Under the pieces are notes generated by a model, which had not been told where the DNA came from, made no database searches, and worked only from the letters and a program-made list of their open reading frames with translations. Of a stretch of 38,339 nt of DNA, positions 2,823 through 32,771 are shown piece by piece. The stretch comes from a virus, in IMG/VR virus record IMGVR_UViG_3300042549_002303, positions 1-38,339 of that record. One strand, 5' to 3'. The position numbers and the translations under genes are program-made. Position 1 is the first letter of the stretch. Every line of letters begins with the position of its first letter.

Positions 2823-3827
2823 ATGCGTTACAGCAATATCAAAACATCTGTTCTCGAACAGTTCCGTGTCGATGGCGGCAATGCCGTCGTGCCATTCATC
2901 CTCGGCGCTCCCGGTGGTGGCAAGTCAGCATGTGCTCGTGAGGTTATCTCTGAGCTTGGCATCGAGTCCGACAAGATCGTAGAGTTCACTGCATCCCTGC
3001 GTGACCCTGTTGACGTGCTCGGCGTACCTGACAACACTGGCGAGTACACACGCTGGGTTCCACCCCAAGAGTTCTACAACCTGCGCCAAGGTGTCGGACG
3101 TGCAGCACTCATTCTGGAGGAGCTGTCCGATGCGCCTGTGCCCATGCAGAACGCACTGTGCGGTGTTATCTACGACCGTCGTGCTGGCAACCTCATGCTG
3201 TCTGACGAGTTGTTCATCATCGCCACTGGCAACCGTACCGAGGACAAGTCTGGTGCCAATCGCATCACATCCAAGCTGGCCAACCGTACACGGCGCTTCG
3301 ACTTCCAAGAGACTATCGAGGACTGGACTGCATGGGCGCTCGACAAAGATATCGACCCTGTGTTGATTCAGTTCCTGCGCTTCCGTCCCGGTCTGCTGTC
3401 TGACTTCGATGCCAACCGCTTCGCCAATCCGACGCCTCGTTCATGGGAGCGTGTCAACCTCATCCCTGACAGCCTCGACAAGGGCCTGTTCTTCGACAAC
3501 TGCGCCGGTGAGGTGGGCGAGGGCGCTGCTGCTGAGTACACTGGCTTCAAGCGTATCTACGAGTCACTGCCTGATATCGACGGTATCTTGCTTGACCCTG
3601 CGGGCTCTGACGTACCCCAAGACCCTGCGACTCTGTACGCCCTGACCGGTGCGCTGGCTCGTAAGTCAACGAAGGACAACTTCGACCGCGTGTCTAAGTA
3701 CCTGTCCCGCCTGTCTCCTGAGTTCAACGTCATGTGTACCAAGGACGCGATCAAGCTGCAGCCTACGATCAAGCACACACGTAGCTTCGTCGAGTGGGCG
3801 TCCAAGAACGCAGAAGTCTTGATGTAA
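2823..3827 (+). CDS. MoxR/CobS-like AAA+ ATPase
   Basis: A 334-aa AAA+ ATPase of the MoxR/CobS type, which remodels protein complexes together with a vWA-domain partner. Visible motifs are Walker A GAPGGGKS at residues 28-35, Walker B ALILEE at 95-100, sensor 1 IIATGNR at 132-138 and an arginine-rich NRTRRFDF at 154-161. The start has AAGGAAA about 8 bases upstream. The probable partner is the vWA protein at 6788, with a DUF3150-like gene between. In bacteria such pairs include RavA-ViaA and the CobS-CobT chelatase; phage versions have no settled function. ATPase assignment is firm, the biological role is not. Confidence 0.9.
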   Translation: MRYSNIKTSVLEQFRVDGGNAVVPFILGAPGGGKSACAREVISELGIESDKIVEFTASLRDPVDVLGVPDNTGEYTRWVPPQEFYNLRQGVGRAALILEELSDAPVPMQNALCGVIYDRRAGNLMLSDELFIIATGNRTEDKSGANRITSKLANRTRRFDFQETIEDWTAWALDKDIDPVLIQFLRFRPGLLSDFDANRFANPTPRSWERVNLIPDSLDKGLFFDNCAGEVGEGAAAEYTGFKRIYESLPDIDGILLDPAGSDVPQDPATLYALTGALARKSTKDNFDRVSKYLSRLSPEFNVMCTKDAIKLQPTIKHTRSFVEWASKNAEVLM

Positions 3828-3830
3828 TCC

Positions 3831-4133
3831 ATGGCCTTGACCTTCACCAACTACCGTTGGGAGAAACCCGGTCGCAAGGGTGACCGGTACTACTACAAGC
3901 GCGACAGAGTGATTCGGTTCTACAACAGCACCGAGGAACGACGTGAAGAGCAGCTAGTAGCTACCGTCACCTACGACGACAACCACAAGTCGCCGCACTG
4001 GGGCAAGTGGCACATCAACATCCACCCCCTGAGTCCTGAGCTCAACGCCCTGCGCGTGTCGGATATACCCAAGTTCAGCAGCAAGGACGATGCGATTGCT
4101 TGGACAACAGCAATGGTAAGGCTAAGCCTATGA
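3831..4133 (+). CDS. Paralogue-array small protein (member 5)
   Basis: A 100-aa protein, 3 bases after the MoxR-like gene. Aromatic beta strands (YYYKRDRVIRFY, HWGKWHINIHP) are followed by the short helix 'FSSKDDAIAWTTAMVRLSL', a degenerate form of the array helix. No strong Shine-Dalgarno is visible, so translation may depend on coupling to the ATPase gene. It may act with the ATPase, judging only from position. Confidence 0.6.
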   Translation: MALTFTNYRWEKPGRKGDRYYYKRDRVIRFYNSTEERREEQLVATVTYDDNHKSPHWGKWHINIHPLSPELNALRVSDIPKFSSKDDAIAWTTAMVRLSL

Positions 4134-4414
4134 AGATCGTCAACCTCGACTGGCGGACCAGCGACGACGGTGAGACGTGGGTGTTGGGCGGACTTGTAAC
4201 CGACCCCGGCAACAGCGGCTTGCTGGACATACGGCGCAAGCTGTTTCAAATCCAGTACCTTGGGCGCACGCAAGTCGCCTTCGGTGGGGGCCACATGCGG
4301 TGGAAGGTATACGACCGCCGCTACTGGGTTGACGACCCGCAAGACATACCAGAGTTCCTCGACCTCGATGAGGCCAAGGCTTGGGTAGAGGCTGTAGTTA
4401 GGTTAGACCCATGA
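4130..4414 (+). CDS. Paralogue-array small protein (member 6)
   Basis: A 94-aa protein beginning MKIVNLDWRTS. The start at 4130 (ATGA overlap) is chosen over an in-frame ATG at 4100. It has glycine-rich beta strands (GGLVTDPGNSG, VAFGGGHMRWKVY) and ends 'FLDLDEAKAWVEAVVRLDP', the clearest form of the LxxAKxWV helix in this array. Coupled by ATGA to the next gene. Function unknown. Confidence 0.65.
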   Translation: MKIVNLDWRTSDDGETWVLGGLVTDPGNSGLLDIRRKLFQIQYLGRTQVAFGGGHMRWKVYDRRYWVDDPQDIPEFLDLDEAKAWVEAVVRLDP

Positions 4415-4701
4415 GACTCGAATGGGAACTCGACGTTGACGTCTTCAACTTGCTGCCATCAGGGCACGGCCCACTGCACTCCGCGTGGCACCTCAAGAAG
4501 GTCTGGGACAAGGACCCATTGGAGGGACAGTTCGCCATACCACGGCGCGGCCAATGGAAAGTGTCGGTTGCTTGGGTGAACAAAGTCAGCGACCGCAAGT
4601 ACCACCTACGCTTCGCCAAAGGCGACTGCGATGCCAAGACCTTCAGGTCTCTAAAAGCAGCCAAGGCATACGCCGTGGCAATCATCACACTGGAGAACTA
4701 A
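4411..4701 (+). CDS. Paralogue-array small protein (member 7)
   Basis: A 96-aa protein beginning MRLEWELDVD, with the MxxxW start seen in other members. Strands such as GQWKVSVAWVN precede the helix 'FRSLKAAKAYAVAIITLEN'. The final codons, CTG GAG AAC, provide GGAG as ribosome binding site for the gene at 4705. Function unknown. Confidence 0.65.
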   Translation: MRLEWELDVDVFNLLPSGHGPLHSAWHLKKVWDKDPLEGQFAIPRRGQWKVSVAWVNKVSDRKYHLRFAKGDCDAKTFRSLKAAKAYAVAIITLEN

Positions 4702-4704
4702 TCA

Positions 4705-4956
4705 ATGAAACGAATCAGCATAGCAATCACCCTGCCAGACAACGGCGGCATCTCGTTCTTCGGGCCACTCAGCTCCGCAGCGGCGGCCAGCAAGTCGTAC
4801 CCAACCAGCTCAAGCCAGCAACGCATGTACATCAGTGCCAACCAAGACCCGCTCGAAGTCGGCAAGACCCTCATGGCCATGCTCGCTGACCTGCAAATGT
4901 CAGACACCCCCATCAAGCCCGGTATCGCACCGGAAGAAATCGACGTCTCGTTCTAA
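4705..4956 (+). CDS. Small hypothetical protein
   Basis: An 83-aa protein that I do not recognise. It starts 3 bases after the previous stop with GGAGA about 10 bases upstream. It has a strand (RISIAITLPD), a serine/alanine-rich central part and a helix (EVGKTLMAMLADLQM), ending in an acidic tail EEIDVSF. Position between the ATPase and the DUF3150-like gene makes it a possible accessory of that module. Confidence 0.6.
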   Translation: MKRISIAITLPDNGGISFFGPLSSAAAASKSYPTSSSQQRMYISANQDPLEVGKTLMAMLADLQMSDTPIKPGIAPEEIDVSF

Positions 4957-4958
4957 CC

Positions 4959-5183
4959 ATGAACGCCAAGCAGCGCCGCCGCCTAGTGCGGCAGTACAAG
5001 GAGAAGATCGAGCTCGACCGTGTCGTGAGGCGACTCGAGGGTACTGGCCAATCATGGTTTGACGCAACCGACTCGAACAACTTGCACAGATACAAATACG
5101 ACGGCGAACTTATTGTTGAAACAGTAGCCCGCTTGAACTTCTACTACGCCCTTCACATCATAGATCAGGAGAAATCAACATGA
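4959..5183 (+). CDS. Small basic hypothetical protein
   Basis: A 74-aa protein with a strongly basic N-terminal helix (MNAKQRRRLVRQYKEKI) that could contact nucleic acid, and a helical C-terminus. There is no clear ribosome binding site before the start; it lies 2 bases after the previous stop and may be coupled. The end carries CAGGAG, the ribosome binding site for the gene at 5180. Function unknown. Confidence 0.6.
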   Translation: MNAKQRRRLVRQYKEKIELDRVVRRLEGTGQSWFDATDSNNLHRYKYDGELIVETVARLNFYYALHIIDQEKST

Positions 5184-6052
5184 CACCCACAAAACTCTCG
5201 GACAAGGTAGTTCTTGTCAAACTGACTATTCGTCGCGCAGCACTCACCAAGCGTGACGCTGTGCTTACGGCTAACTTACAAGCGCAGGAGAAAGACAACA
5301 GCCTCACTGTGCTGACCAAGCTGTTCAAGGACAAGGACTCAGCCATCAACCAGATCATGGCCAAGTATGGCGAGGTCTACCAGTACCACAAGAAGCACAC
5401 GCTGCCTTACATGGACGCTGGCCCACGTATCCTGCCAAACGATATGTACATGGAGTACACGCAGGAGATGAAGCATCGCATCGCTCAGGTGGACAACCTG
5501 CTCGACACCTACATGCCCATGTATGACCAGCTAGTGTTGGACGATGTGATGTACCGCAACAGCGGCCATGCAGCCGGACGTGCCAACGTGTCCGAGTATC
5601 CCAACGCCGAAGACTTCAGGCTGTCCATGTCTGCCGAGTTGCGCTTCCAGCCCATGCCTGACGCCTCGCACTTCCTGTTCGACCTCAGTGAAGACGACGT
5701 TGCATCGTTCAAACGTGCCGAGGAAGAAGCCGCGCAAGCTGCCAACGCTGACACCATACAGCGCATGCTCAAGCCCATACAAGCACTGGTGACTAAGCTG
5801 GGCGAGTACCAAGGCCTCAAGGGTGAACGCTTCCACAACAGCCTTGTCGAGAACGTCATCGACGGATGCACACTGGCTCGCAAGCTGGCAATCAACCCGA
5901 CACCTGAGCTGCTGGCAGATATCGCTGAGTTGGAAGATGCAGTGCAGGGCTACCTCAAGGATGTGGAGATGATCAAGGGCTCCGCCAACAAGCGTGTCGA
6001 GGCTAAGAAGAAGCTGCAAGACGTGGCGTCAAAGATGGCGATGTTCTCATGA
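5180..6052 (+). CDS. DUF3150-like protein of the MoxR/vWA module
   Basis: A 290-aa helical protein. From memory of the family, it follows the DUF3150 pattern: 'YHKKHTLPYMDAGPRILP' at about residues 69-86, 'YMEYTQEMKHR' just after, 'YPNAEDFRLSMS' and 'FQPMPDA' in the middle, then long coiled helices. DUF3150 genes commonly sit between CobS/MoxR-like ATPases and CobT/vWA proteins on plasmids and phages, which matches its place here. Molecular role unknown; a scaffold or adaptor for the ATPase-vWA pair is a reasonable guess. ATGA overlaps join it to both neighbours. Confidence 0.65.
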   Translation: MTPTKLSDKVVLVKLTIRRAALTKRDAVLTANLQAQEKDNSLTVLTKLFKDKDSAINQIMAKYGEVYQYHKKHTLPYMDAGPRILPNDMYMEYTQEMKHRIAQVDNLLDTYMPMYDQLVLDDVMYRNSGHAAGRANVSEYPNAEDFRLSMSAELRFQPMPDASHFLFDLSEDDVASFKRAEEEAAQAANADTIQRMLKPIQALVTKLGEYQGLKGERFHNSLVENVIDGCTLARKLAINPTPELLADIAELEDAVQGYLKDVEMIKGSANKRVEAKKKLQDVASKMAMFS

Positions 6053-6246
6053 ACTTCACTGACCTCGAGTACATCCTGATGGTCGCAGTAGCAGTGCTGC
6101 TGTGGCGTAACGCAGACACCAAGCGGTGGGCTGAGCATGAAGAACGCAGAGCCAACAAGTATTCACGCTGGCTGATAGGCGTGTATGAAAAGAAAGGAAA
6201 GATTGTGCAGAAAGACGATGGATACTTTTTTGAGGAGATCAAATGA
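6049..6246 (+). CDS. Single-pass membrane protein
   Basis: A 65-aa protein with one hydrophobic segment near the N-terminus (YILMVAVAVLLW, residues 8-19) followed by a charged, basic cytoplasm-like region (RNADTKRWAEHEERRANKY) and an acidic end. The charge pattern suggests N-out, C-in by the positive-inside rule. Coupled by ATGA to the DUF3150-like gene; it might tether the module to the membrane, but no direct evidence shows this. Confidence 0.6.
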   Translation: MNFTDLEYILMVAVAVLLWRNADTKRWAEHEERRANKYSRWLIGVYEKKGKIVQKDDGYFFEEIK

Positions 6247-6785
6247 GCATTATGAACAACAATGATCGAGGGCGTATCACGGGTATGCCCGGTACAGAGA
6301 CAACAGTGAAGCTGTACCCACAACGACTGGGTGTGAGGATGCGTAACAACATCATCCGGCAGCTGGAGAGCCGCGCCCTCACTGGCGGCTGGTCGTCCAA
6401 GTCAAGGCAGATAGCGCAAGCACTGGCCGTCAAGAACGGACTTCAGCTCAGCAGCAACAACTGGAACGGCATACGCGTGCTAGGCCTAACCCCACAAGCA
6501 GCACCACTGATAAAGGAGGTCGTCCATGCAGACTGGACAGCATGGATGCTGGAGCAACCGACGTACCGTACTGGGTATTACAGAGATCAGTTCGACAAGG
6601 CGATGGTGGCTATCGCTGCGCACGACCAGAACTTCTACATCACCATGCACGACAAAGAGTCAATCCGTAAGGTTATAGCAATCTTGGCAGAACATACTAC
6701 ACAGGAGCTCATAGACAAAGCAAAGCAAGTAGCCGACATGCTCAGAGGCACTGAGCCAATCGAAATCATCACTTTCAAGGAGTAA
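6243..6785 (+). CDS. Hypothetical protein in MoxR/vWA module
   Basis: A 180-aa soluble protein of unknown family. The N-terminal half is basic (KLYPQRLGVRMRNNIIRQLES), the C-terminal half helical (IRKVIAILAEHTTQELIDKAKQVADML). Start supported by GAGGAG about 7 bases upstream and an ATGA overlap. Its last codons (AAG GAG TAA) give AAGGAG, the ribosome binding site of the vWA gene, so the two are probably made together. Confidence 0.6.
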   Translation: MSIMNNNDRGRITGMPGTETTVKLYPQRLGVRMRNNIIRQLESRALTGGWSSKSRQIAQALAVKNGLQLSSNNWNGIRVLGLTPQAAPLIKEVVHADWTAWMLEQPTYRTGYYRDQFDKAMVAIAAHDQNFYITMHDKESIRKVIAILAEHTTQELIDKAKQVADMLRGTEPIEIITFKE

Positions 6786-6787
6786 TC

Positions 6788-7903
6788 ATGGCAGTCACCA
6801 CACTCGATCGCGCTAAGGTATCAATCGTTACCCAGCATCCATTCTTTGCATCCATCCTCATGAAGCGCAAGCTCATCGAGGACAACACCATCCCCACCGC
6901 AGCTGTCGATCAGCGCGGCCAGATTTACTACAACAAGGCCTTCGTCGAGAAGCTGTCTGTTGACGAGCTTGTGTTCCTGCTGTGTCACGAGGTCGGCCAT
7001 GTCATCGGTCAGCATGCACTGCGCCGTGGTGCGCGTAACGCCAAGAAGTGGAACGTCGCTGGCGACGCATGGATCAACGACATGCTCAAGGACGCAGGCA
7101 TCGGCTCCTTCATCGAGGGCGGTGTCAACATGCCCGGCTCCAAGGACGAGACAGTAGACGTCATCTACAACAAGCTGCCCGACCAGCCGCCCGGTGGTGG
7201 CGGTGGCCCCGGTGGTATCGGTGACGACCTGATCGAGCGTGGCACACCAATGACTCAGGATGAGGCTGACCGCATCGACGCTGAGACTCGTGTCGAGATT
7301 GCCCAAGCAGCTCAAGCAGCCAAAGCTCAGGGCAAGATGCCCGGTGGTCTGGCCAAGATCGTCGCTGACCTCATCGACGTGCAGACTCCATGGCACGATA
7401 TCCTCGAGCGTTACATGACCTCGTTCACTCGCGGTGACTACACATGGTCACGCCCCAACCGCCGCTTCGCCAACTGCTACCTGCCAAGCACAGGCAAGAC
7501 TGCCGAGATGGGCGAGGTTGTCATCCAAGTCGACGTGTCCGGCTCCATCAGCAAGGTCGAGCTTGACCATTACAACGGCCACTTGCAGCGCATCGTGTCG
7601 CAGTGCAACCCATCCCGTGTCCATGTCTTGTATGTCGACACTGCGGTAGCCAAGCACGAGGTGTTCGAGCAGGGCGAGGAAGTGTCCCTCACGTTCTACT
7701 GTGGCGGCGGCACTGACATGGAAGAGGGCTTCAACTACATCGCCAAGGAAGGTATCAACCCCGAGGTGTTCGTGTGCTTGACCGACGGTTACACCGACTT
7801 CAACGAGGCCAACGCGCCTGACTACCCAGTCGTGTGGTGTATCTCTAGTGACATTCGTGCCCCGTACGGCGACAATATCCCTTTTACCTTGGAGCAACCA
7901 TGA
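6788..7903 (+). CDS. vWA-domain protein with HExxH metallopeptidase-like motif (DUF2201-like)
   Basis: A 371-aa protein with two parts. The N-terminal domain carries HEVGH at residues 67-71 with a further His at 76, the pattern of the DUF2201 putative metallopeptidase domain. A Gly/Pro-rich hinge (134-145) leads to a C-terminal von Willebrand A domain with MIDAS residues: DVSGS at 249-253, T309 in GGGTD and D333 in LTDG. It is the expected partner of the MoxR-like ATPase at 2823, as CobT/ViaA-type proteins are for their ATPases. Whether the HExxH site cuts protein is unknown. Strong AAGGAG precedes the start. Confidence 0.88.
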   Translation: MAVTTLDRAKVSIVTQHPFFASILMKRKLIEDNTIPTAAVDQRGQIYYNKAFVEKLSVDELVFLLCHEVGHVIGQHALRRGARNAKKWNVAGDAWINDMLKDAGIGSFIEGGVNMPGSKDETVDVIYNKLPDQPPGGGGGPGGIGDDLIERGTPMTQDEADRIDAETRVEIAQAAQAAKAQGKMPGGLAKIVADLIDVQTPWHDILERYMTSFTRGDYTWSRPNRRFANCYLPSTGKTAEMGEVVIQVDVSGSISKVELDHYNGHLQRIVSQCNPSRVHVLYVDTAVAKHEVFEQGEEVSLTFYCGGGTDMEEGFNYIAKEGINPEVFVCLTDGYTDFNEANAPDYPVVWCISSDIRAPYGDNIPFTLEQP

Positions 7904-8058
7904 ACGCCAAAGACCAACTCGACTCTCTTATCGACGCATACAACGACATCTTCAAGCAGTGCTACGACGCACTAGCTGCCGATGCACCACAAGAAACACG
8001 CGATGCTCTCAGAACAGCAATCCAAGAGTTCCTCGGAACATCCGATACAGAAGAGTGA
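7900..8058 (+). CDS. Small hypothetical protein (52 aa)
   Basis: A 52-aa ORF starting by ATGA overlap with the vWA gene; GGAGCAACC just upstream is its ribosome binding site. It is an acidic all-helical protein (DQLDSLIDAYNDIFKQCYD, ETRDALRTAIQEFLG). The coupling to the vWA gene is the best clue to function: it could be a small partner of that protein. It overlaps the next ORF in another frame by about 56 bases. Confidence 0.55.
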   Translation: MNAKDQLDSLIDAYNDIFKQCYDALAADAPQETRDALRTAIQEFLGTSDTEE

Positions 8059-8245
8059 ACGCATCCGCGTAGAGCGGAGCAACACCGTTGGCGTGCAGGT
8101 AGTGCGCAACCAGCAAGGCTGGCACGTCAACGTATCCATCAACAAGGTGCCGCATACACACCACGGCCCTTTCAAAGAACCAATAACGCTCACAGAAGCA
8201 ATGGTCTACGTCTCAACACTAATCAAACTTGAAGAAGGAATCTAA
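8003..8245 (+). CDS. Small protein, possible paralogue-array member
   Basis: An 80-aa protein if started at 8003, 87 aa from an ATG at 7982; neither has a good ribosome binding site, so the start is uncertain. The useful region is strands GVQVVRNQQGWHVNVSIN followed by 'ITLTEAMVYVSTLIKLEEGI', the same strand-plus-LxxAxxxV helix plan as the array at 1223-4701. The end holds GAAGAAGGAA, ribosome binding site of the next gene. Function unknown. Confidence 0.5.
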   Translation: MLSEQQSKSSSEHPIQKSERIRVERSNTVGVQVVRNQQGWHVNVSINKVPHTHHGPFKEPITLTEAMVYVSTLIKLEEGI

Positions 8246-8247
8246 TC

Positions 8248-8919
8248 ATGGCAACAGTTGGCATCACCAAAGAGCTTATCAGTCGCGTCAAGACTAAGAT
8301 CGACGGCATGCGCAAGGCAGAGCGAGCAAACGACCTGCCGGACATTGACAAGAACTACAGCATCGACGCAAGCAAGCTTTACAACATCGGCTGCTGGGGC
8401 GCAGACCACGTCCACCTTCTCGAGTCTATCCCCAAGGATTGGCTGACCAAGTCTCCCGATGCAGACATCACCATCCATGGCTGGACTGACGAAGGCAGAT
8501 CGCTCAAGACTAGCGTGCGCTTCAACAACATGGCGTTCGCATACCAGCGTCCAAAGGACAACTACTACAACAGGCCTGACTCCGAGCTGACGGTCGATCA
8601 GGTGCATGCGTTCCCCGAGGAGACTCCGGGCCGCGCCGAGCTGCTGCAACGCTGGGACGACGCCCTCGTTGAGATGGCCATCAACGCACGGTGGGCTAAG
8701 GTAGAGGCAGACATTACAGAGTTCCTCAACAAGTGCAAGACACTTAACGAGGCGGTCAAGCTGTTTCCCGGTGTGCGTATGTACATCCACTACGAAGACA
8801 TCGAGCGCCTTGATCGCAAGCTCGAGCGCCCCACACAGCGTGCCAAGATCGTTGAAGACATGGACACCGAGGGACTTACAGCTGCAGCCATTGCAGCTAA
8901 GTTGGCAGCGGCATCATGA
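8248..8919 (+). CDS. Hypothetical phage protein
   Basis: A 223-aa soluble protein with AAGGAA 8-10 bases before its start. The N-terminal helix and a central beta region (ITIHGWTDE, LKTSVRFNN) are followed by helices including 'CKTLNEAVKLFPGV'. That last segment resembles the 'TxxxLxExWPEa' segment of phage proteins annotated as Nmad5 or capsid-adjacent hypotheticals, a weak likeness I would not name it by. Coupled by ATGA to the coiled-coil gene at 8916. Confidence 0.6.
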   Translation: MATVGITKELISRVKTKIDGMRKAERANDLPDIDKNYSIDASKLYNIGCWGADHVHLLESIPKDWLTKSPDADITIHGWTDEGRSLKTSVRFNNMAFAYQRPKDNYYNRPDSELTVDQVHAFPEETPGRAELLQRWDDALVEMAINARWAKVEADITEFLNKCKTLNEAVKLFPGVRMYIHYEDIERLDRKLERPTQRAKIVEDMDTEGLTAAAIAAKLAAAS

Positions 8920-13126: not shown

Positions 13127-13313
13127 CGGCAACCACTACAAGCAGATGAAGATTCAGCCAGTCGAGTTCATCCATGCCAACGGCATCCCATACCTCGAGG
13201 GCAACGTCATCAAGTACGTCAGTCGCTGGCGCAGCAAGAACGGCGTAGCCGACCTCAAGAAGGCCAAGCACTACATCGAACTGTTGATCGAGCTGGAGGG
13301 TCGCAATGTTTAA
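13098..13313 (+). CDS. DUF3310 phage protein
   Basis: A 71-aa protein matching the DUF3310 pattern: DGNHYKQMKIQPVEFI, GNVIKYVSRWRSKNG, DLKKAKHYIELLI. The family is common in phages of many hosts and is sometimes called a nucleotide kinase-like protein, without biochemical proof. GAAGGAAAAA lies 3-12 bases before the start. The end encodes CTG GAG GGT, ribosome binding site for the next gene. Confidence 0.8.
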   Translation: MTNPLDEQIDGNHYKQMKIQPVEFIHANGIPYLEGNVIKYVSRWRSKNGVADLKKAKHYIELLIELEGRNV

Positions 13314-13614
13314 AGACCTGATGCACAACATACTTGGCAGCAGTGGGCAGGCCGCTATGGGCGCTGCCATGATGACCACTGGGTACCCCAGCATTGCAAA
13401 CCAATACAACGCAATGATCAAGCAAGAACAAGTGCCAAAATCCAGAAAGCTATTTCATGGCACTGTCGAAGTGCTGCAAGTGGCCAACGGCTACATCGTC
13501 AACATCGGACGCAAAGAAGGCTACGAGTACGAGACGTACATAGCCGAGACCATCACTGACGTGAACGAGCGCATCGCCGCCGCCATCGTCGCGTTCCAAC
13601 TGGAGGGAAAATGA
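13306..13614 (+). CDS. Small protein, possible paralogue-array member
   Basis: A 102-aa protein overlapping DUF3310 by 8 bases. The N-terminal third is Gly/Ala/Met-rich; then come strands (VEVLQVANGYIVNIGRKEG) and a C-terminal helix 'VNERIAAAIVAFQLEGK'. The next gene shares the same strand-turn-helix plan (FSVIKAANGRIIKVSTYK ... VIARIMAIKALES), so these two look like duplicates. LEG at the end again encodes the ribosome binding site for the next gene. Function unknown. Confidence 0.6.
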   Translation: MFKDLMHNILGSSGQAAMGAAMMTTGYPSIANQYNAMIKQEQVPKSRKLFHGTVEVLQVANGYIVNIGRKEGYEYETYIAETITDVNERIAAAIVAFQLEGK

Positions 13615-13913
13615 GCGTCAAACAATGGCTGCGTAACTGGCTTATGTCAGACGAACGTAAGGTAAATCAAATAGGATACCCAGACCAACCTCTAGCTGTC
13701 AGCGCCAGCAGACTAGACCCCATAGGTGATGAGACGGCACAGTCAACCTTCTCTGTCATCAAAGCCGCGAACGGTCGCATCATCAAGGTGTCGACGTACA
13801 AGCCGCAAAGTCGCGGCCCTGACTGGGCGCACGAACTCTACATCGTCAAGGATGATGAGAAAATCCCGGACGTGATTGCAAGAATCATGGCTATCAAAGC
13901 ATTGGAGAGTTAA
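13611..13913 (+). CDS. Small protein, duplicate of preceding gene
   Basis: A 100-aa protein, ATGA-coupled. The N-terminal part differs from the previous gene, but the second half aligns with it by eye: xVIxAANGxIIxVS..., acidic turn, then a helix rich in Ile/Ala ending KALES. Function unknown. TTGGAGAG at its end serves the MazG-like gene. Confidence 0.6.
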   Translation: MSVKQWLRNWLMSDERKVNQIGYPDQPLAVSASRLDPIGDETAQSTFSVIKAANGRIIKVSTYKPQSRGPDWAHELYIVKDDEKIPDVIARIMAIKALES

Positions 13914-25142: not shown

Positions 25143-28100
25143 TTAGTTGGCTGTTACGTCTTCAGCCAGTTTACGCTGGCCTTCGCGGTACTGTACTCCA
25201 CCAACCGTGCGCTTCTCACGCTGCGCTTGTTCCTGTGGAGCCTTGAGCAAGTTAGACACCGGCTGTGGGGTGAGGCCGTTGCGCTGACGTGCTTGCTGCA
25301 GTTTAGTCCATGCCTCACGAGCATCCTGCATGGCAGCAGTGTCCTTCTGGCGAACCGCTTGGGCGTAGTCGTTCTTGATACGCGTAGTGCGATCTTGGAA
25401 GTTTTTCGTCAAGTCGCGCATCCGGTTCTGGCGCTCGTAGGTCACTGTCTGTTGGACCGATGGCACACCAAGACCTGTCAGCACAGTTTCCACTGCACCG
25501 ATTTCGCTTTCAGGAAGAACCACGTCGCCGTTGCGGCGGGTCATACCCTCAGTGGCTTGACGGCCAGCCTTGAGCGCATCAGACACACCCTTGGGCATCA
25601 CACGCTCCAGACCCTTGTAGTAGTCACCCTTGGACATTAGGATCAAGCCGTCGGCTACACGCGAGGTCATACCCAACACGGCACCGCCCAACAACGTACC
25701 AAGCGCCTCGGCTTGGCCAGCAGTAGTGCTCAAGTCAGCGTCACTGAATGGCATGATGGACAGCATGTTGCCTGCACCGATCTTGCCGGACAAGTCCATA
25801 CCAACAATGGTCGGAGCGCCGCGCATAATCATGTCAGCCCACTCAGGGCCAAGCGCCTTGCGCATCTCAGCGGTCAGGTCGTACGGCTCGTCTTCGTCAC
25901 CAAATGCACCCAAGATGGCAGAGATGGCTGCGTAGCCGGGCAAGCCCATCAGGCCCGCAAACACACCAGTGTGACCCAACGAGTAGGCCAGTGTCTTCAT
26001 GGCAGCAGCACGCTCATCAGGCTTGGTAAACGCATCACGAATCAGCTTGGCGTAGAACGTGATCTGAATCAACTGGAACTTGCGGAACTGCAGCGCCACC
26101 TTACCCAACTGGCTGTTGAACGCACGAGGAGCGTTGAGCGCGGTGTAGTCACCATGGGTCTCGGCCAGAATATCAGCGGCGTACTGCGTTGCCTTGGCGG
26201 CGTCCTTGGTCTTGGCATACTCCAGACGGTAGGCAGCAATGGCAGTAGACAGTCGGTTGACCGCCTCGACCTTTTGCACGGCCATACGCATACCCTTGTT
26301 CAGGCGCTGCGCAAACTGGCTGAGTTTTCCATCAGCGTCAACCTTGTACTCGTTGATTTCAGTGGCCAGACCGATGTCGATCTTGCCTTGGTTGACCAGC
26401 TCGTTGATCGCAGTGCGTACGTCGGCAGGCACCTTGGAGAAGTCAAACTGCTGGTCGAACAGCTTCACGTCCTTGAACAGTGGACCCAACTCGGTGTAGG
26501 CCTTGGCCATCTCGGCAGCGGCCTTGGTGTAGTCATGGCGACCTGCCATGGCGGGCAGCGACATCATGAACGGCTGTGTCAAGTTCTGCAGGTAGTACGC
26601 AGGGCTGGAAGCCAAGAAGAACTTGGACGCCATGTTGGTCAAGCCGTTTACCCACGAGTTAACCTTCACGTCCAGCGAACCGGCGTAACGCTGTGTCAAC
26701 TCATTGAAGATTTCCGACTTGCGTTCGCGGTCACCCGAGCGAGACTCATTGCGCATGTTCTGCAGTTGGTCTTGTACCAGCGGCTCGAACTGTACGTTGG
26801 CCATAAAGTTGGCGTCGGCTCGGCCTTGCTGGGTAAACGACTGGAGCATGTCCACTTCACCGGCCACACCACGACGGCGCATCTCAGACTTGCGAGCACT
26901 ACCCTCAGCCAAAGCCTCCAAGTACAACTGGTTGATGATGTTGAGCATCTTGCCAGCGGTCGGGTCTTTTTTGCCGTTGGTGTCTGTAGCGCGTTTGTCC
27001 ACAGCGGCTCGCATTTTGGTGAGCGCTGGCAGGAGAGCTTCACCGCTGAACGCTTCCTCAAATGCCTGTGAACGGGTAACGATGTCCAGTTCAGTGAACA
27101 CGCCTTGCTCGGCCAGCTTGTCCTTCAGGGTACGGGCTTCCCACTTGCTGTCCACAAAGCTGACATGGTAGTGGTCAGGATCAGACTCGAGCTGCTTGAC
27201 GCGCTTGGTGTCCTTGGCTGCAACAGCGGCTTTGTATTCATCAGACTTGCCGATGACAACCTGAGTACCGTTACGCTTGATGGGCGCGTATGGCAGACCC
27301 TCGCGGATACGGAACAGTGTCTGGAAGCGCTTGAGTGAAGCAGCTTTCTCGGCCTTGAGGGAAGCCTCAGCCTTGGTGTCGTTGGCGTCCTGCGCCGCCT
27401 TAATCATGGCGTCGTACTCAGACGTTGCAGCGTCCAAAACAATTTTCTTCTTGTCAGACAGCATCTTGTCGCCATGGGCAAACACGTCCTTGACGAACTT
27501 CTGAGCTTTGGGGCCCAGCTTGTCGAACTCAGCGCCCATCTTGGCATCGCGGTATTTGCCATAGCCCCACTTGCCGGTGCGTGTGGACTCAAACAAGAAG
27601 TCGTTGACGCTGCCGCGACCCGAACCCTTGAACTCAGGCTCAATGTCGGCGTAGCCGTCTGCGATCTTTTCAATCTCACGCTCGAGCTCACTGACGCGAG
27701 CAGCGCGGCGGGCCAGCACATCAGCAAACTTCTGAGCCGATGGCATACCAGCGGCCACGGCACGATTGACCAAGTCGCTGGTAAACACCACATAGTCCAG
27801 ACCCTTACCTGCCAGATCGCTCAAGGCACCGACGGTGTTACGGACTGGCTGCTGCGCCTGCTTGGGCAGCTTAGCGATGTTGCGGTCGATCAGGCCTTGT
27901 CTTTGGCGGCTGGCTCGAGAAATTGCGCCAGCAGGCTGCGCCCCTTGCTGTCCAGCTTGAACTTGTCCTGACTGAGCACCTTGCTGGGCACCTTGGGCGG
28001 CTGCGTAGTTGGTTGCTTTAACTTGTTCATGCACCTTCTCCATAAAAGCGTGTGTGGTTGGCAGGTTATCACGGAGGAAGTCCATGCCGCCGTTCATGTT

Positions 28101-31100
28101 GGAAAAAGCCCACACCTGAGCAAAAACTTCCTCGCGGAGCTCTTGAGCTGACAGTGAGCGGTTCAGCTTGTCAGACATATCCAGCGGATAGTTGAGCATG
28201 TAGCCCAGCGCCGTAGTATCGCTGTTGTCCTCAAAGTAGTTCAGGATTTCGTCCGCAACGGTGCCGGGGCGCAGCGCCATAGGCTCGCCATTCACCTTGG
28301 ACATCTTAAACTCACGGTCGCCAGAGAACTTGCCCAAGCCACCTTGCACTTCGTCGATGCCGTGACCGACTTCATGGAGCGTAGCAATGGTAGACAGCTC
28401 TTTGTCCTTGAGGATCAAGCCGTTGTAAATGATCGTGCGCTTGCCGTCCACGATGGTGTAAATAGCATCCCATGACACGGGCGAAAATGTCACCATCCAA
28501 GAGTCGATGGCGTCAACAGCGTTGCCCATGCCAGAGTTGCGCAAGCTGCGGATACCAGCGGCAATGCCTTCAGAGTAGCCGGACAAGTCGTCCAGCGAAG
28601 CTTCCACAGACTCAAAGGCAACACCATCTTGGTCGGTAGTGCGTACACTGCGACGCGACATGCGAGTAGTGCCCAGCGCAGCTTTGAGTGCGTTAGCCGT
28701 TCTGTTTGAATCGCGGCTAGACATGACGTCCGACGGTTTAACATATTCTCGCCGTATAGTTACCCGCTCTCCGTTACGGTCGTACCCACTAAACACGGAC
28801 TGATCCTGACTGGTAAACCCGTCAAGTCTAGTACCGTCGGACAAAGTCACCGGGTTGCGAATTTCGCGTCCATACTGCGGTTGGCCAGAAATATTTTCTT
28901 TGCCAAGATACAGGTCGGTAGCAAACAGGCGCGATGTTTGGCGTGACTTGCGAAGAAACAGTTCTTCCTCTTTGGCAGCCACGGTGCGGTCAACGCCAGC
29001 AGTCTTGGTAGCTGACTTCACTGGAGTGGTAGTGGTCTTGGTGACTGGCTGTACGCCTTCGCGCACGAGGCGGTCGTTGGCCACGTTGCCGGTGATGAAG
29101 TCGTTGACTGTGCTCTGCACGTCTGGAACCACGAACAGCTTGGAGCCGTCCATGTTGGCGCTGTATTTGCCGACCATGTCCTTGAACGTCTCTTTGTCCA
29201 CGTTAATGCAGCCAAACGAGTAGCGCGAGTCAGCAGCGGAATCGTTCTTGAGGGCAGCAGCACGCTTGGCAGCATCCGACTCTTTGAGCCAGACAGAGTG
29301 CATAAACGTCACCGTGGCATCTGGGTCGTCCAGCGCAAACACCTTGCCGAAGTCGTAGTCACCGGCAGTCGTAGCAGCAGCTCCACCCTTGGCAGCATCG
29401 ACCACATTGATACCAAACAGGCCAGCGGGAGTCACACGGTTCTGCTTGAGGTCGTTGTTGCCCTTGTACAGATCACCCTTGGCCAAACCAAACAAGGCTT
29501 TTTGCTGCAGCACCAGATCGCCATTGGCTTTGAACACAAAGATGCGACCGCTTGGCTTGTCAGCGATGGTGACGAACTTGTCGCCAATCTTGCCCTTGAG
29601 GGCAGGGATCAGTGTGGCGTAGGCTTGCTTGCCTGCCTCGGACATACCCTTTACTTCGGCTGGCAGTTCTGCCAAAACTTGCGTTGTCGTAGTCCGGGTC
29701 TCCTGTGGGATTACCACGAAGGCTTCGATCTGCGACACGGCAGTTGGGTTGAAGATCATGGCCACCGACAGAACACCAGCGTGGATGGACTTGATGATGT
29801 CACGGATGGCACCAGCAACTGCCTCGGCACCCTTGGTAGCGTACAGAACAACATCGGCCTTGACCTTGGCCATGAACTCAGGTGTGTCCCGCTTAACGTT
29901 GTAGTGATTCTCCAGTCGTGTGACTTGAGGCGCAGGCAGCTTAGCCACTTGAGGGGCTACGGTTTCTTCGACGACTCGGGCTTCCACGTCGATAGTGACA
30001 GGCTCATTGGTCAGCTTCTTAGGCGCAGCAGCGCGGGCCAGCTTGGTCAGCTCAAGCTCAACGTCACCACGCTCCCAGTTGCCGGGGCCGAACTCAATGA
30101 AGTCTTGCTGCTGAGCCTTGGTCAGCTCAGCGAACTTGGGAGCCTGCGGGAAGTCAGCAGCGACTACATCCCACGCTTGGGCGGCTTGCTCGGCTTCGGT
30201 GAGGACGACGGCTGGGACTTGGGCTTTGCCTTCTGTGGCAGGCTTTTTGGCACTCCGTACTTGTCGGCCCACTCCTTCGCCAGCTTCGGCTTCTGGCTGA
30301 ACAGATACCCCTGCTGGGCTTTCGACTTGAACGGCATCAGGTTCTCCTAGTTCTTTGGGTTGTTCGGCTTTAGCGGCGGTTTCCTCCGCAGCGTCTTTTT
30401 CAGACTTGCGGCCAGCAAGAGCTCGGACTTCTGCCTGAGCTTGCTTTTCAACTGCCTTGACCTTTTCAATCTGCGCGGCCAGAGTGGCGTTCAGTTGTGC
30501 CAGTACGGCTTCGTCGGTCTCTATGGCCAGCGCCTCAAGCGTGGCGTCAATTTCTTTTTGCAGCTTGGTGAAGCCTTCAACAGCAGACGTACTAGCGCCT
30601 GCAGTCTTGACAATGTTACCCAGACCAGCTTCGATGGCTTCGTTCTCGTCCATGCGGTCTTGACTCTGGGTAAAGACTTCGCTGGCTATCTGACCTTCCG
30701 TGCTATCTGGCGCAACTGTGTTGAACGCATCAGCAATTTGAGCGTCAGTCAAGTTAAATTTAGCCTTGGCGTCTGCAATGAGCGCTGGCCACTCCTTCTG
30801 ACCAGTAGCACCAGCAATCTTCTGAATGGTCGGACGGCTAAGACCGTACTTGGTAGCAGCTTCCTGCTCAGACATTCCCATGCCAATCACGTCAAAAATA
30901 ATGTCGCCGTTACGCGTACCAAAGATTTGCTGGAGTATTGCTTGGCGTTCGTCTACGACTGGTCCTGCGGCGGCAGGTGTCTCTTGTCCTTGCGTTTCTG
31001 CTTGCTGGGCTTGAGCGGCTTTAGCGGCATTTGCGGCTTCCAAAACTGTCATTGGTCGAGGGGCACGACGGAAACGAGTATCCGGCGCGGGGGCGGCTGT

Positions 31101-32771
31101 TGGGGCAGTCGTAGTTACAGGGGTAGATGGTTGCCCGGCTGTGCTTGGAAGAAGGCCAGTTTGTTGAAGTGGGGCTCCAGCTGCTGGGGCACTTCCGACC
31201 ACCGTTCCTGCGACAGGAGCAGCGCGTCCTGCATCTCCCACAGCTCCTTGAACGACAGGGCTCCCGACTCCCAAGCCTCCTGCAGGCTGCTGTACAGTAG
31301 AAACTCCTGTGCTGGCATCTGGTACTCCCGCAGTAGAAACGCTCAAGCCACTAATGATGTTTTGCGCAGCAGCGCTCTTGATTACTTTTTCTGCCTGCTT
31401 GTATTTGTTCTGCGCAAGCAGCGTACGAACTCGGTCTAACTGCTCTTCCGTCAGATTAGCTTCCATCAGCTTTGGCAGTATTTCCAATGTTCTGCCAGAC
31501 GGGTTAATACCAAACGAAAGAAGTTTTTGCTCGTCGGCGTTAAAGATTTTGGAAGCTGCAGGTGCGGCAGTTGTAGCTGCGGGCGCAGTCAGGTCCGTCT
31601 CTTGATTAAGAATGGCCGGAGTCACCAGAGGAATACCGGCGTAGGTTCCGCCAAGCGGGTTAGCCGCTGCGTATGGGCTACCCATCAAGGCTGCAGTGTC
31701 CAGTCCAGTGCGCGGCACGGGCGTAATTTCCGCAACAGTTGGCGTTTCTGCACCTGTACCTGCATCCGGCTGAGTCAGGTCGCGCTCCTGCATGGGAGCT
31801 CGGTAACCTTCACTGCGGCCAAAGCCTGTAGCGCCACCAATAGTACCGCCGAGCAATGCGCCACCGATGGCGGATTCTTTGTAACGACCTAGCGCAGCAT
31901 CGGACAGGAACGCTTCATTTGGGTCAACAGCCATGCGACCAAGCTGGCTGGTCATTTCCTGCAGAGTCTCGGTGCCGCCTTCTATACCAGCGGTACGTAC
32001 GCCAGAAGCTCCAGCACGAGCAAGACCGCCGCGCAGGCCTTGAATGTTATCCAAGGCGGTAATGCCAGAACGAATGCCTTGCTGGCGGGCCAGCGCACCT
32101 TCAATGCCCAAAGCGTTGAGCGCCGAGTACGGCACGCCGAGCGCTGCTGCAGCGCCCAAGTCAATCTGACCATCGGCCTGCTCTCGCTGTGCTTGCAGGA
32201 TGTCGCCAACTGCGGACGGATAACCGGCAGCTACGCCACCAACAGTCTGGCCAGCACGCAACGCTCGAGTGGCTTGAGCAGCAGCACCAACGTCACCAGC
32301 GGCCCGGGCAGTACCCAGAGCGGCACGAGTGCCAGACATCAACCCGCGAGCAGCCAAACCGCCGCCAAGGGCTTCAGCCATGTAGGGGGCAGAGCCAATG
32401 GCCAGACCGCCGACATAGCTTGGCAGGTCAGAAATACCTTGGACGTCTTCAAAGCTCTCAATTGCGCCTTGAGCGCGAGCACGTTCAGATGCTACGTTGG
32501 CTTCAAACTCATTGGCTTCGCGACCGCGACGAAAGAAGTTAGCCCCGGTAACAGCCTCACCCAGCCCATACAAACCTGCCTGATAGCGGTCAATGGCAGC
32601 ACCAGTGCGAAGTCCAGCAACGCCAGATTCTGTTGGTTTGTAGCCATACTCAGAAGCAATACGGCCCGGGGAAACCCCCGCCGCAGTGGAAGCTAGTTGC
32701 AGAAGCTGCTCATCGCTTTTGTCGTTGGCAAACGCCCCGAGGGCGGATCGCAGGTCTGCAATAGACGGCAT
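25143..32771 (-). CDS. Giant polyvalent internal virion protein (2542 aa)
   Basis: A 2542-aa protein, probably ejected with the DNA like other phage large polyvalent proteins. Layout: Ala/Gly-rich, membrane-like N-terminal region (about 1-330); Pro/Ala/Gln-rich linkers (to about 1000); an L,D-transpeptidase (YkuD)-like domain about 1070-1200 with RVTPAGLFGI, H1158 (FMHSVW) and C1188 (YSFGCIN); a zincin-like domain with HEVGH at 1466-1470 and a candidate third ligand near E1547; long helical regions; and a C-terminal LPD-like region with hydrophobic segments and 'ALQFRKFQ'. AAAGGTG precedes the start. Domain enzymatic activity is inferred, not shown. Confidence 0.85.
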   Translation of the reverse strand: MPSIADLRSALGAFANDKSDEQLLQLASTAAGVSPGRIASEYGYKPTESGVAGLRTGAAIDRYQAGLYGLGEAVTGANFFRRGREANEFEANVASERARAQGAIESFEDVQGISDLPSYVGGLAIGSAPYMAEALGGGLAARGLMSGTRAALGTARAAGDVGAAAQATRALRAGQTVGGVAAGYPSAVGDILQAQREQADGQIDLGAAAALGVPYSALNALGIEGALARQQGIRSGITALDNIQGLRGGLARAGASGVRTAGIEGGTETLQEMTSQLGRMAVDPNEAFLSDAALGRYKESAIGGALLGGTIGGATGFGRSEGYRAPMQERDLTQPDAGTGAETPTVAEITPVPRTGLDTAALMGSPYAAANPLGGTYAGIPLVTPAILNQETDLTAPAATTAAPAASKIFNADEQKLLSFGINPSGRTLEILPKLMEANLTEEQLDRVRTLLAQNKYKQAEKVIKSAAAQNIISGLSVSTAGVPDASTGVSTVQQPAGGLGVGSPVVQGAVGDAGRAAPVAGTVVGSAPAAGAPLQQTGLLPSTAGQPSTPVTTTAPTAAPAPDTRFRRAPRPMTVLEAANAAKAAQAQQAETQGQETPAAAGPVVDERQAILQQIFGTRNGDIIFDVIGMGMSEQEAATKYGLSRPTIQKIAGATGQKEWPALIADAKAKFNLTDAQIADAFNTVAPDSTEGQIASEVFTQSQDRMDENEAIEAGLGNIVKTAGASTSAVEGFTKLQKEIDATLEALAIETDEAVLAQLNATLAAQIEKVKAVEKQAQAEVRALAGRKSEKDAAEETAAKAEQPKELGEPDAVQVESPAGVSVQPEAEAGEGVGRQVRSAKKPATEGKAQVPAVVLTEAEQAAQAWDVVAADFPQAPKFAELTKAQQQDFIEFGPGNWERGDVELELTKLARAAAPKKLTNEPVTIDVEARVVEETVAPQVAKLPAPQVTRLENHYNVKRDTPEFMAKVKADVVLYATKGAEAVAGAIRDIIKSIHAGVLSVAMIFNPTAVSQIEAFVVIPQETRTTTTQVLAELPAEVKGMSEAGKQAYATLIPALKGKIGDKFVTIADKPSGRIFVFKANGDLVLQQKALFGLAKGDLYKGNNDLKQNRVTPAGLFGINVVDAAKGGAAATTAGDYDFGKVFALDDPDATVTFMHSVWLKESDAAKRAAALKNDSAADSRYSFGCINVDKETFKDMVGKYSANMDGSKLFVVPDVQSTVNDFITGNVANDRLVREGVQPVTKTTTTPVKSATKTAGVDRTVAAKEEELFLRKSRQTSRLFATDLYLGKENISGQPQYGREIRNPVTLSDGTRLDGFTSQDQSVFSGYDRNGERVTIRREYVKPSDVMSSRDSNRTANALKAALGTTRMSRRSVRTTDQDGVAFESVEASLDDLSGYSEGIAAGIRSLRNSGMGNAVDAIDSWMVTFSPVSWDAIYTIVDGKRTIIYNGLILKDKELSTIATLHEVGHGIDEVQGGLGKFSGDREFKMSKVNGEPMALRPGTVADEILNYFEDNSDTTALGYMLNYPLDMSDKLNRSLSAQELREEVFAQVWAFSNMNGGMDFLRDNLPTTHAFMEKVHEQVKATNYAAAQGAQQGAQSGQVQAGQQGAQPAGAISRASRQRQGLIDRNIAKLPKQAQQPVRNTVGALSDLAGKGLDYVVFTSDLVNRAVAAGMPSAQKFADVLARRAARVSELEREIEKIADGYADIEPEFKGSGRGSVNDFLFESTRTGKWGYGKYRDAKMGAEFDKLGPKAQKFVKDVFAHGDKMLSDKKKIVLDAATSEYDAMIKAAQDANDTKAEASLKAEKAASLKRFQTLFRIREGLPYAPIKRNGTQVVIGKSDEYKAAVAAKDTKRVKQLESDPDHYHVSFVDSKWEARTLKDKLAEQGVFTELDIVTRSQAFEEAFSGEALLPALTKMRAAVDKRATDTNGKKDPTAGKMLNIINQLYLEALAEGSARKSEMRRRGVAGEVDMLQSFTQQGRADANFMANVQFEPLVQDQLQNMRNESRSGDRERKSEIFNELTQRYAGSLDVKVNSWVNGLTNMASKFFLASSPAYYLQNLTQPFMMSLPAMAGRHDYTKAAAEMAKAYTELGPLFKDVKLFDQQFDFSKVPADVRTAINELVNQGKIDIGLATEINEYKVDADGKLSQFAQRLNKGMRMAVQKVEAVNRLSTAIAAYRLEYAKTKDAAKATQYAADILAETHGDYTALNAPRAFNSQLGKVALQFRKFQLIQITFYAKLIRDAFTKPDERAAAMKTLAYSLGHTGVFAGLMGLPGYAAISAILGAFGDEDEPYDLTAEMRKALGPEWADMIMRGAPTIVGMDLSGKIGAGNMLSIMPFSDADLSTTAGQAEALGTLLGGAVLGMTSRVADGLILMSKGDYYKGLERVMPKGVSDALKAGRQATEGMTRRNGDVVLPESEIGAVETVLTGLGVPSVQQTVTYERQNRMRDLTKNFQDRTTRIKNDYAQAVRQKDTAAMQDAREAWTKLQQARQRNGLTPQPVSNLLKAPQEQAQREKRTVGGVQYREGQRKLAEDVTAN

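Follow-up and report, generated by a model that had tools for sequence, protein, structure and literature searches.

A conserved gene trio for a MoxR-like ATPase, a DUF3150-like protein and a metallopeptidase-vWA protein in a phage family and on plasmids

Introduction

In pairs of a MoxR ATPase and a von Willebrand factor A (vWA) protein, the metal-ion-dependent adhesion site (MIDAS) of the vWA domain holds a target peptide, while the ATPase ring drives a conformational change (PMC7159879). An ATPase and a metallopeptidase-vWA protein, gp24/gp25, are core proteins of N4-like phages (PMC4193335, PMC2784036), and jumbo phages carry a MoxR-vWA chaperone pair that includes a metallopeptidase at the N terminus, for which a role in virion assembly has been proposed (PMC7824862). 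A literature search found no functional test of an ATPase/vWA pair in bacterial phages, and the main texts of PMC11879866 and PMC12571901 hold no gene-essentiality data for N4 gp24/gp25. Here we describe the virus record IMGVR_UViG_3300042549_002303 of IMG/VR (38,339 bases, analysed whole and called the window below), in which such a pair is joined by a third gene, encoding a DUF3150-like protein; our search of open-licence papers found none on DUF3150. The ATPase and vWA pair, widespread in phages, is not new; what is new is the third partner, which plasmids have as well.

Results

The trio and its operon

The window carries a forward, densely packed run of genes from 381 to at least 14 kb, many of them with 4-bp stop/start overlaps. 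The trio lies in this run, upstream of the DNA polymerase gene, with late-type genes on the opposite strand:

2823..3827, + strand: MoxR-like AAA+ ATPase of 334 residues, PHROG 1297 (PHROG match, motifs, profile match to midasin AAA)
5180..6052, + strand: DUF3150-like protein of 290 residues, mostly helical (profile and fold comparisons)
6788..7903, + strand: DUF2201 protein of 371 residues, with an N-terminal HExxH metallopeptidase-like domain and a C-terminal MIDAS vWA domain, PHROG 1314 (Pfam, PHROG, motifs, fold)

A stretch resembling a ribosome site, AAGGAAA, precedes 2823, and ATGA-type 4-bp overlaps of start and stop occur at 4130, 4411, 5180, 6049, 6243 and 7900; all genes of the coupled operon described in a first-pass annotation of this DNA are present where that annotation had placed them. 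A nucleotide search against phage records gave no match.

In the ATPase, Walker A reads GAPGGGKS at exactly the residues annotated before (28-35), and the Walker B stretch is LILEE, where its phage family shares a Glu at the position that normally holds Asp. The catalytic Glu100, sensor-1 Asn137, Arg155 and Arg206 do not vary among 16 diverse homologues. The protein matches PHROG 1297 'ATPase' (E 6e-64) and 665 phage records; matches to Pfam AAA_3/AAA_5 are weak and below cut-off, and the best PDB match of the family profile is the AAA region of midasin (E 1e-20).

The vWA protein had likewise been read as DUF2201-type with both a MIDAS and an HExxH motif, which the Pfam matches (DUF2201_N, PF13203, E 1e-48; DUF2201, PF09967, E 1.5e-19) and invariant motifs confirm. 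HExxHxxxxH falls at H67/E68/H71/H76, and a full DxSxS...T...D MIDAS at D249/S251/S253, T309 and D333; both are invariant in 19 diverse proteins, and together with the ATPase motifs they are intact in all members of the phage family. Fold matches include the vWA domain of CLCA1, the midasin MIDAS and NorD. The protein matches 531 phage records and PHROG 1314 (E 2e-89). This PHROG is named 'HNH endonuclease', though the members seen here are metallopeptidase-vWA proteins; the label, found on many phage records, is thereby exposed as wrong.

Identity of the DUF3150-like protein

The DUF3150 assignment of the first-pass annotation stands on profile and structure comparison and not on a direct Pfam match. 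Pfam and NCBIfam scans gave no PF11348 match for the window protein, and Pfam gave none for 20 relatives; a relative on a Cupriavidus plasmid reaches 21.8 bits against a cut-off of 24.9. A cyanophage protein annotated as DUF3150, however, shares 26% identity with the window protein over 95% of the latter's length, and plasmid proteins share about 20-26%; two of these plasmid proteins bear that name, and identities to proteins so annotated span 22-26%. Using hhalign, the phage and plasmid families match each other with a probability of 98.4 (E 6e-15); for the combined family against bona fide DUF3150 the probability is 88 (E 2.9e-6, 210 columns), while the plasmid set alone reaches 22. An AlphaFold2 model of moderate confidence (predicted local distance difference test, pLDDT, 71) resembles a viral model named DUF3150 (template-modelling score 0.66, E 4.9e-11) and has no significant match in the PDB. 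Several lines thus support a distant kinship, and we call the putative relative 'DUF3150-like', not DUF3150, since a Pfam match is lacking, yet the profile and fold comparisons agree. A weak fold match to Mycobacterium phage Dylan gp94 (E 7e-3) was rejected on three grounds: the neighbouring gene encodes a classical AAA ATPase, no MIDAS motif turned up, and the family profile did not match.

The trio is conserved in related phages

Scans of viral contigs retrieved 30 loci with the DUF3150-like query and, separately, 45 loci with the vWA query. In every related locus that reaches far enough, the ATPase, DUF3150-like and vWA genes stand in the same order on one strand, a conservation far beyond chance. 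As a check independent of the module, contigs were recruited by their DNA polymerase and 19 of at least 45 kb were searched, 18 of them informative; ATPase and vWA genes are present in 18/18 and the DUF3150-like gene as well in 17/18. The genes are thus not scattered among related phages, and the earlier expectation that they are kept together is borne out. One contig of 50.5 kb (G312), from which all three genes are absent, was set aside as uninformative, as it ends ~2 kb past the polymerase gene.

Rhizobium phage RHph_TM3_14A (L227), distant by its DNA polymerase, has the ATPase and vWA genes beside the polymerase gene without a DUF3150-like gene, and no DUF3150-like protein was found in pVa5 or in an Acinetobacter plasmid with a vWA gene. 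In another relative both contig ends carry part of the ATPase gene (locus L154, contig G309, 61578 bases), so that this relative probably has a complete genome of about 61 kb, closed into a circle.

The trio on plasmids and in bacterial genomes

A first scan of bacterial genomes with the phage alignment found nothing. The full trio, directly adjacent, is nonetheless present on plasmids of Cupriavidus, Paraburkholderia, Burkholderia and Rhodovastum, some of the trio-bearing plasmids being conjugative or mobilizable; in Simplicispira an ATPase-type gene lies further upstream. Among genome loci of Burkholderiaceae the trio is adjacent in 33/33, as far as the sequence reaches. In L084 and L087 (Burkholderia, Paraburkholderia) it adjoins genes for a type IV secretion system (T4SS). 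On two Burkholderiaceae plasmids (L082, L087) it lies at most about 6 kb from genes of the PRTRC cassette, and a functional link with that cassette is possible.

In five plasmid-type vWA homologues (L084, L098, L113, L114, L115) the HExxH has decayed to LKVMQ or HDVLH, while the MIDAS is intact. Where it reads LKVMQ, a WN..D..IN motif is lost as well, and this joint loss hints that WN..D..IN may belong to the active site.

Three of the five bacterial DUF3150 loci that were examined hold a parallel set: an ATPase of the CbbQ type or resembling CobS, a true DUF3150, and a vWA protein that is either CobT-like or plain. In a fourth locus the vWA gene is present and no ATPase is in view. The vWA protein of the parallel set carries its own HExxH and MIDAS, and the set in L135 lies near a YqaJ nuclease gene.

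Small and accessory genes

The remaining genes in and directly after the module are as follows:

3831..5183, + strand: five small genes starting at 3831, 4130, 4411, 4705 and 4959, between the ATPase and DUF3150-like genes (variable, partly paralogous)
6049..6246, + strand: single-pass membrane protein of 65 residues, accessory (occurrence among relatives)
6243..6785, + strand: orphan of 180 residues in no known family, common but dispensable (aligned family, 20-63% identity)
7900..8058, + strand: protein of 52 residues directly 3' of the vWA gene, widely kept in the phage family (4-bp overlap with the vWA gene)
8248..8919, + strand: orphan of 223 residues downstream of the module, kept in the phage family only (occurrence among relatives)

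Candidate new subunits had been seen in the 6049 membrane protein, which to the eye has a single apparent transmembrane segment at its N terminus, and in the small proteins. A core role for them is not supported, since the three genes are directly adjacent without them on the plasmids and in a clade of minimal trios (L069-L072, L081), where the 6049 and 6243 genes are both missing; the 6049 gene and most of the small genes are thus accessory at most. The 6049 gene occurs only in the closer relatives and L060, and was undetected in L059, L061-L073, L075 and L081. The 52-residue gene is present in nearly all loci (undetected in L059, L062-L064), while the 223-residue gene is the steadiest companion of the module within the phage family; its product has no match in phage records or PHROGs.

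Several small module genes belong to an array of small paralogue-like proteins at 939-2695, 3831-4701, 7982-8245 and 13306-13913, many of which end in a tail of the AxxxV...KLE type. Independent links join 1223, 2190 and 1765 (E about 1e-4) and 3831 with 4100 (E 0.005); the wider grouping depends on a profile made from the same proteins, and the content of the array differs among relatives.

Elsewhere in the window, a protein of 2542 residues (25143-32771, - strand) has no Pfam match; by eye, a stretch resembling L,D-transpeptidases (SFGCINV) and an HEVGH motif can be recognised, reminiscent of polyvalent injected proteins.

Discussion

With roughly even confidence, we suggest that the trio encodes an early-acting, ATP-driven remodelling machine directed at a host or nucleoprotein target, not at the virion. 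We infer a physical complex in which the MoxR-type AAA+ ring (2823) would work with its DUF2201 partner (6788); the vWA MIDAS would capture the target protein and the N-terminal HExxH domain, when intact, would clip it, while the helical DUF3150-like protein (5180) would add a third subunit restricted to certain lineages, most probably as an adaptor linking target, ring and vWA partner. The machine would be produced early, before the replication genes, and its target may be a host or nucleoprotein component needed by phages and conjugative plasmids, be it for replication and establishment or for the defeat of a host system. Target capture appears to be the more constant function, as the five plasmid-type homologues have lost HExxH and kept the MIDAS; the DUF3150-like protein looks like an add-on, most simply an adaptor, because it is absent from N4-type pairs and from one close relative. 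We regard as doubtful the more specific version, a three-subunit, ATP-dependent remodelling protease whose DUF3150 subunit would pick the targets, and which phages and conjugative plasmids would use to disarm or rebuild one host protein early after DNA entry.

In favour of the early-acting machine are the intact motifs throughout the phage family, the kept order and strand of the trio, its presence in 17/18 polymerase-recruited contigs, its adjacency on plasmids that make no virion, the parallel bacterial sets, and the position upstream of the DNA polymerase gene on the strand opposite the late-type genes. Several observations weigh against it. Loss of HExxH in five homologues implies that proteolysis is not essential everywhere. 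Nor is the DUF3150-like protein always needed: it was not found in N4, Roseobacter CRP-7, Thermus phiFa, Paride or phage G, and the close relative G315 (= L226), on a contig that may be incomplete, carries the pair with small genes in its place. A scan for sigma-70 promoters and terminators gave fewer sites than in shuffled sequences and no promoter signal above chance. In trees the trios were not resolved as one clade and the deep branches are weak, so that a single origin of the trio is unsupported. Finally, structural genes are close to the pair in N4-like roseophages (PMC4193335).

This last location, close to a second structural module, would suit a virion-assembly chaperone-protease that folds and clips structural proteins, as explicitly proposed for the MoxR and metallopeptidase-vWA pairs of jumbo phages (PMC7824862) and with a reported precedent in p618/p892, an ATPase/vWA pair found in Acidianus two-tailed virus (ATV), cited in PMC7824862 and PMC7911831. 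For the present locus we consider this rather unlikely: the trio sits here in an early-type region, far from the structural genes, which are on the other strand, and it also serves plasmids, some conjugative or mobilizable, that build no particle, so that a virion-only role is improbable for the trio version. The first-pass annotation had allowed for virion maturation, which the plasmid occurrence weakens, whereas its idea of a MoxR-type ATPase/vWA machine with a DUF3150-like partner is retained. The shift in likely role away from virion assembly, which the particle-free plasmids bring about, could be tested by a simple conjugation assay.

A counter-defence device, dismantling or cleaving a host immune protein picked by the DUF3150-like subunit, would fit the early-type location, the embedding of the module among small paralogous genes that form a variable array, and the presence of the trio in both phages and plasmids, which all face host defence; but the pair is core in N4-like phages (PMC4193335), unusual for a specific anti-defence gene, and the module matched no defence or anti-defence model, PADLOC included, the third gene being DUF3150-like and not a known third component of MoxR-vWA ternary systems (VMAP, iSTAND). 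We thus judge this reading unlikely. Highly improbable is a role as metal chelatase or in cofactor insertion, on the model of CobS-CobT or Mg-chelatase. The true-DUF3150 sets do carry CbbQ-type ATPases and CobT-like vWA proteins, but the window vWA protein matches DUF2201 and not the CobT type expected of a CobS/CobT cobaltochelatase, its ATPase has no CbbQ_C match, the listed plasmid neighbours of the trio are not cofactor genes, and no CobN or other large chelatase subunit was recognised by eye in the window's lists of open reading frames, which were not searched with a CobN model. We favour the early-acting remodelling machine.

Comparison with known systems

RavA-ViaA, NorQ-NorD and midasin share with the present module a MoxR-clade ATPase and a MIDAS vWA partner; to our knowledge they have no metallopeptidase domain and no DUF3150 component, and domains specific to RavA or ViaA had no Pfam match in the window proteins. 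The bacterial sets of a CbbQ-type ATPase, DUF3150 (PF11348) and a CobT-like vWA protein (L135, L137, L139) follow the same three-part logic, with HExxH and MIDAS, but differ in their CbbQ_C ATPase (shown for L135 and L137), in a CobT-like vWA protein with an acidic linker, and in having intervening genes.

Cyanophage MinM2 and Pag-Yong1 have MoxR, DUF3150 and VWA-like genes in this order with small genes between; identity to the window proteins is about 25-28% and the small genes are others. The N4 gp24/gp25 and jumbo-phage pairs have the same ATPase family and the same DUF2201 fusion in the same order and strand, and the window pair shows the features of the gp24/gp25 type, namely PHROG 1297 with its motifs, the PHROG 1314 fusion and conserved same-strand neighbours; the present phage family differs in adding the DUF3150-like gene and the orphans at 6243 and 8248. 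The plasmid trios of Burkholderiaceae and Rhodovastum lack small genes between the three, have T4SS or PRTRC neighbours in some cases and a decayed HExxH in some, but consist of three homologous genes in the same order as in the phages, with DUF3150-like families that match at the probability of 98.4 given above and are 21-26% identical.

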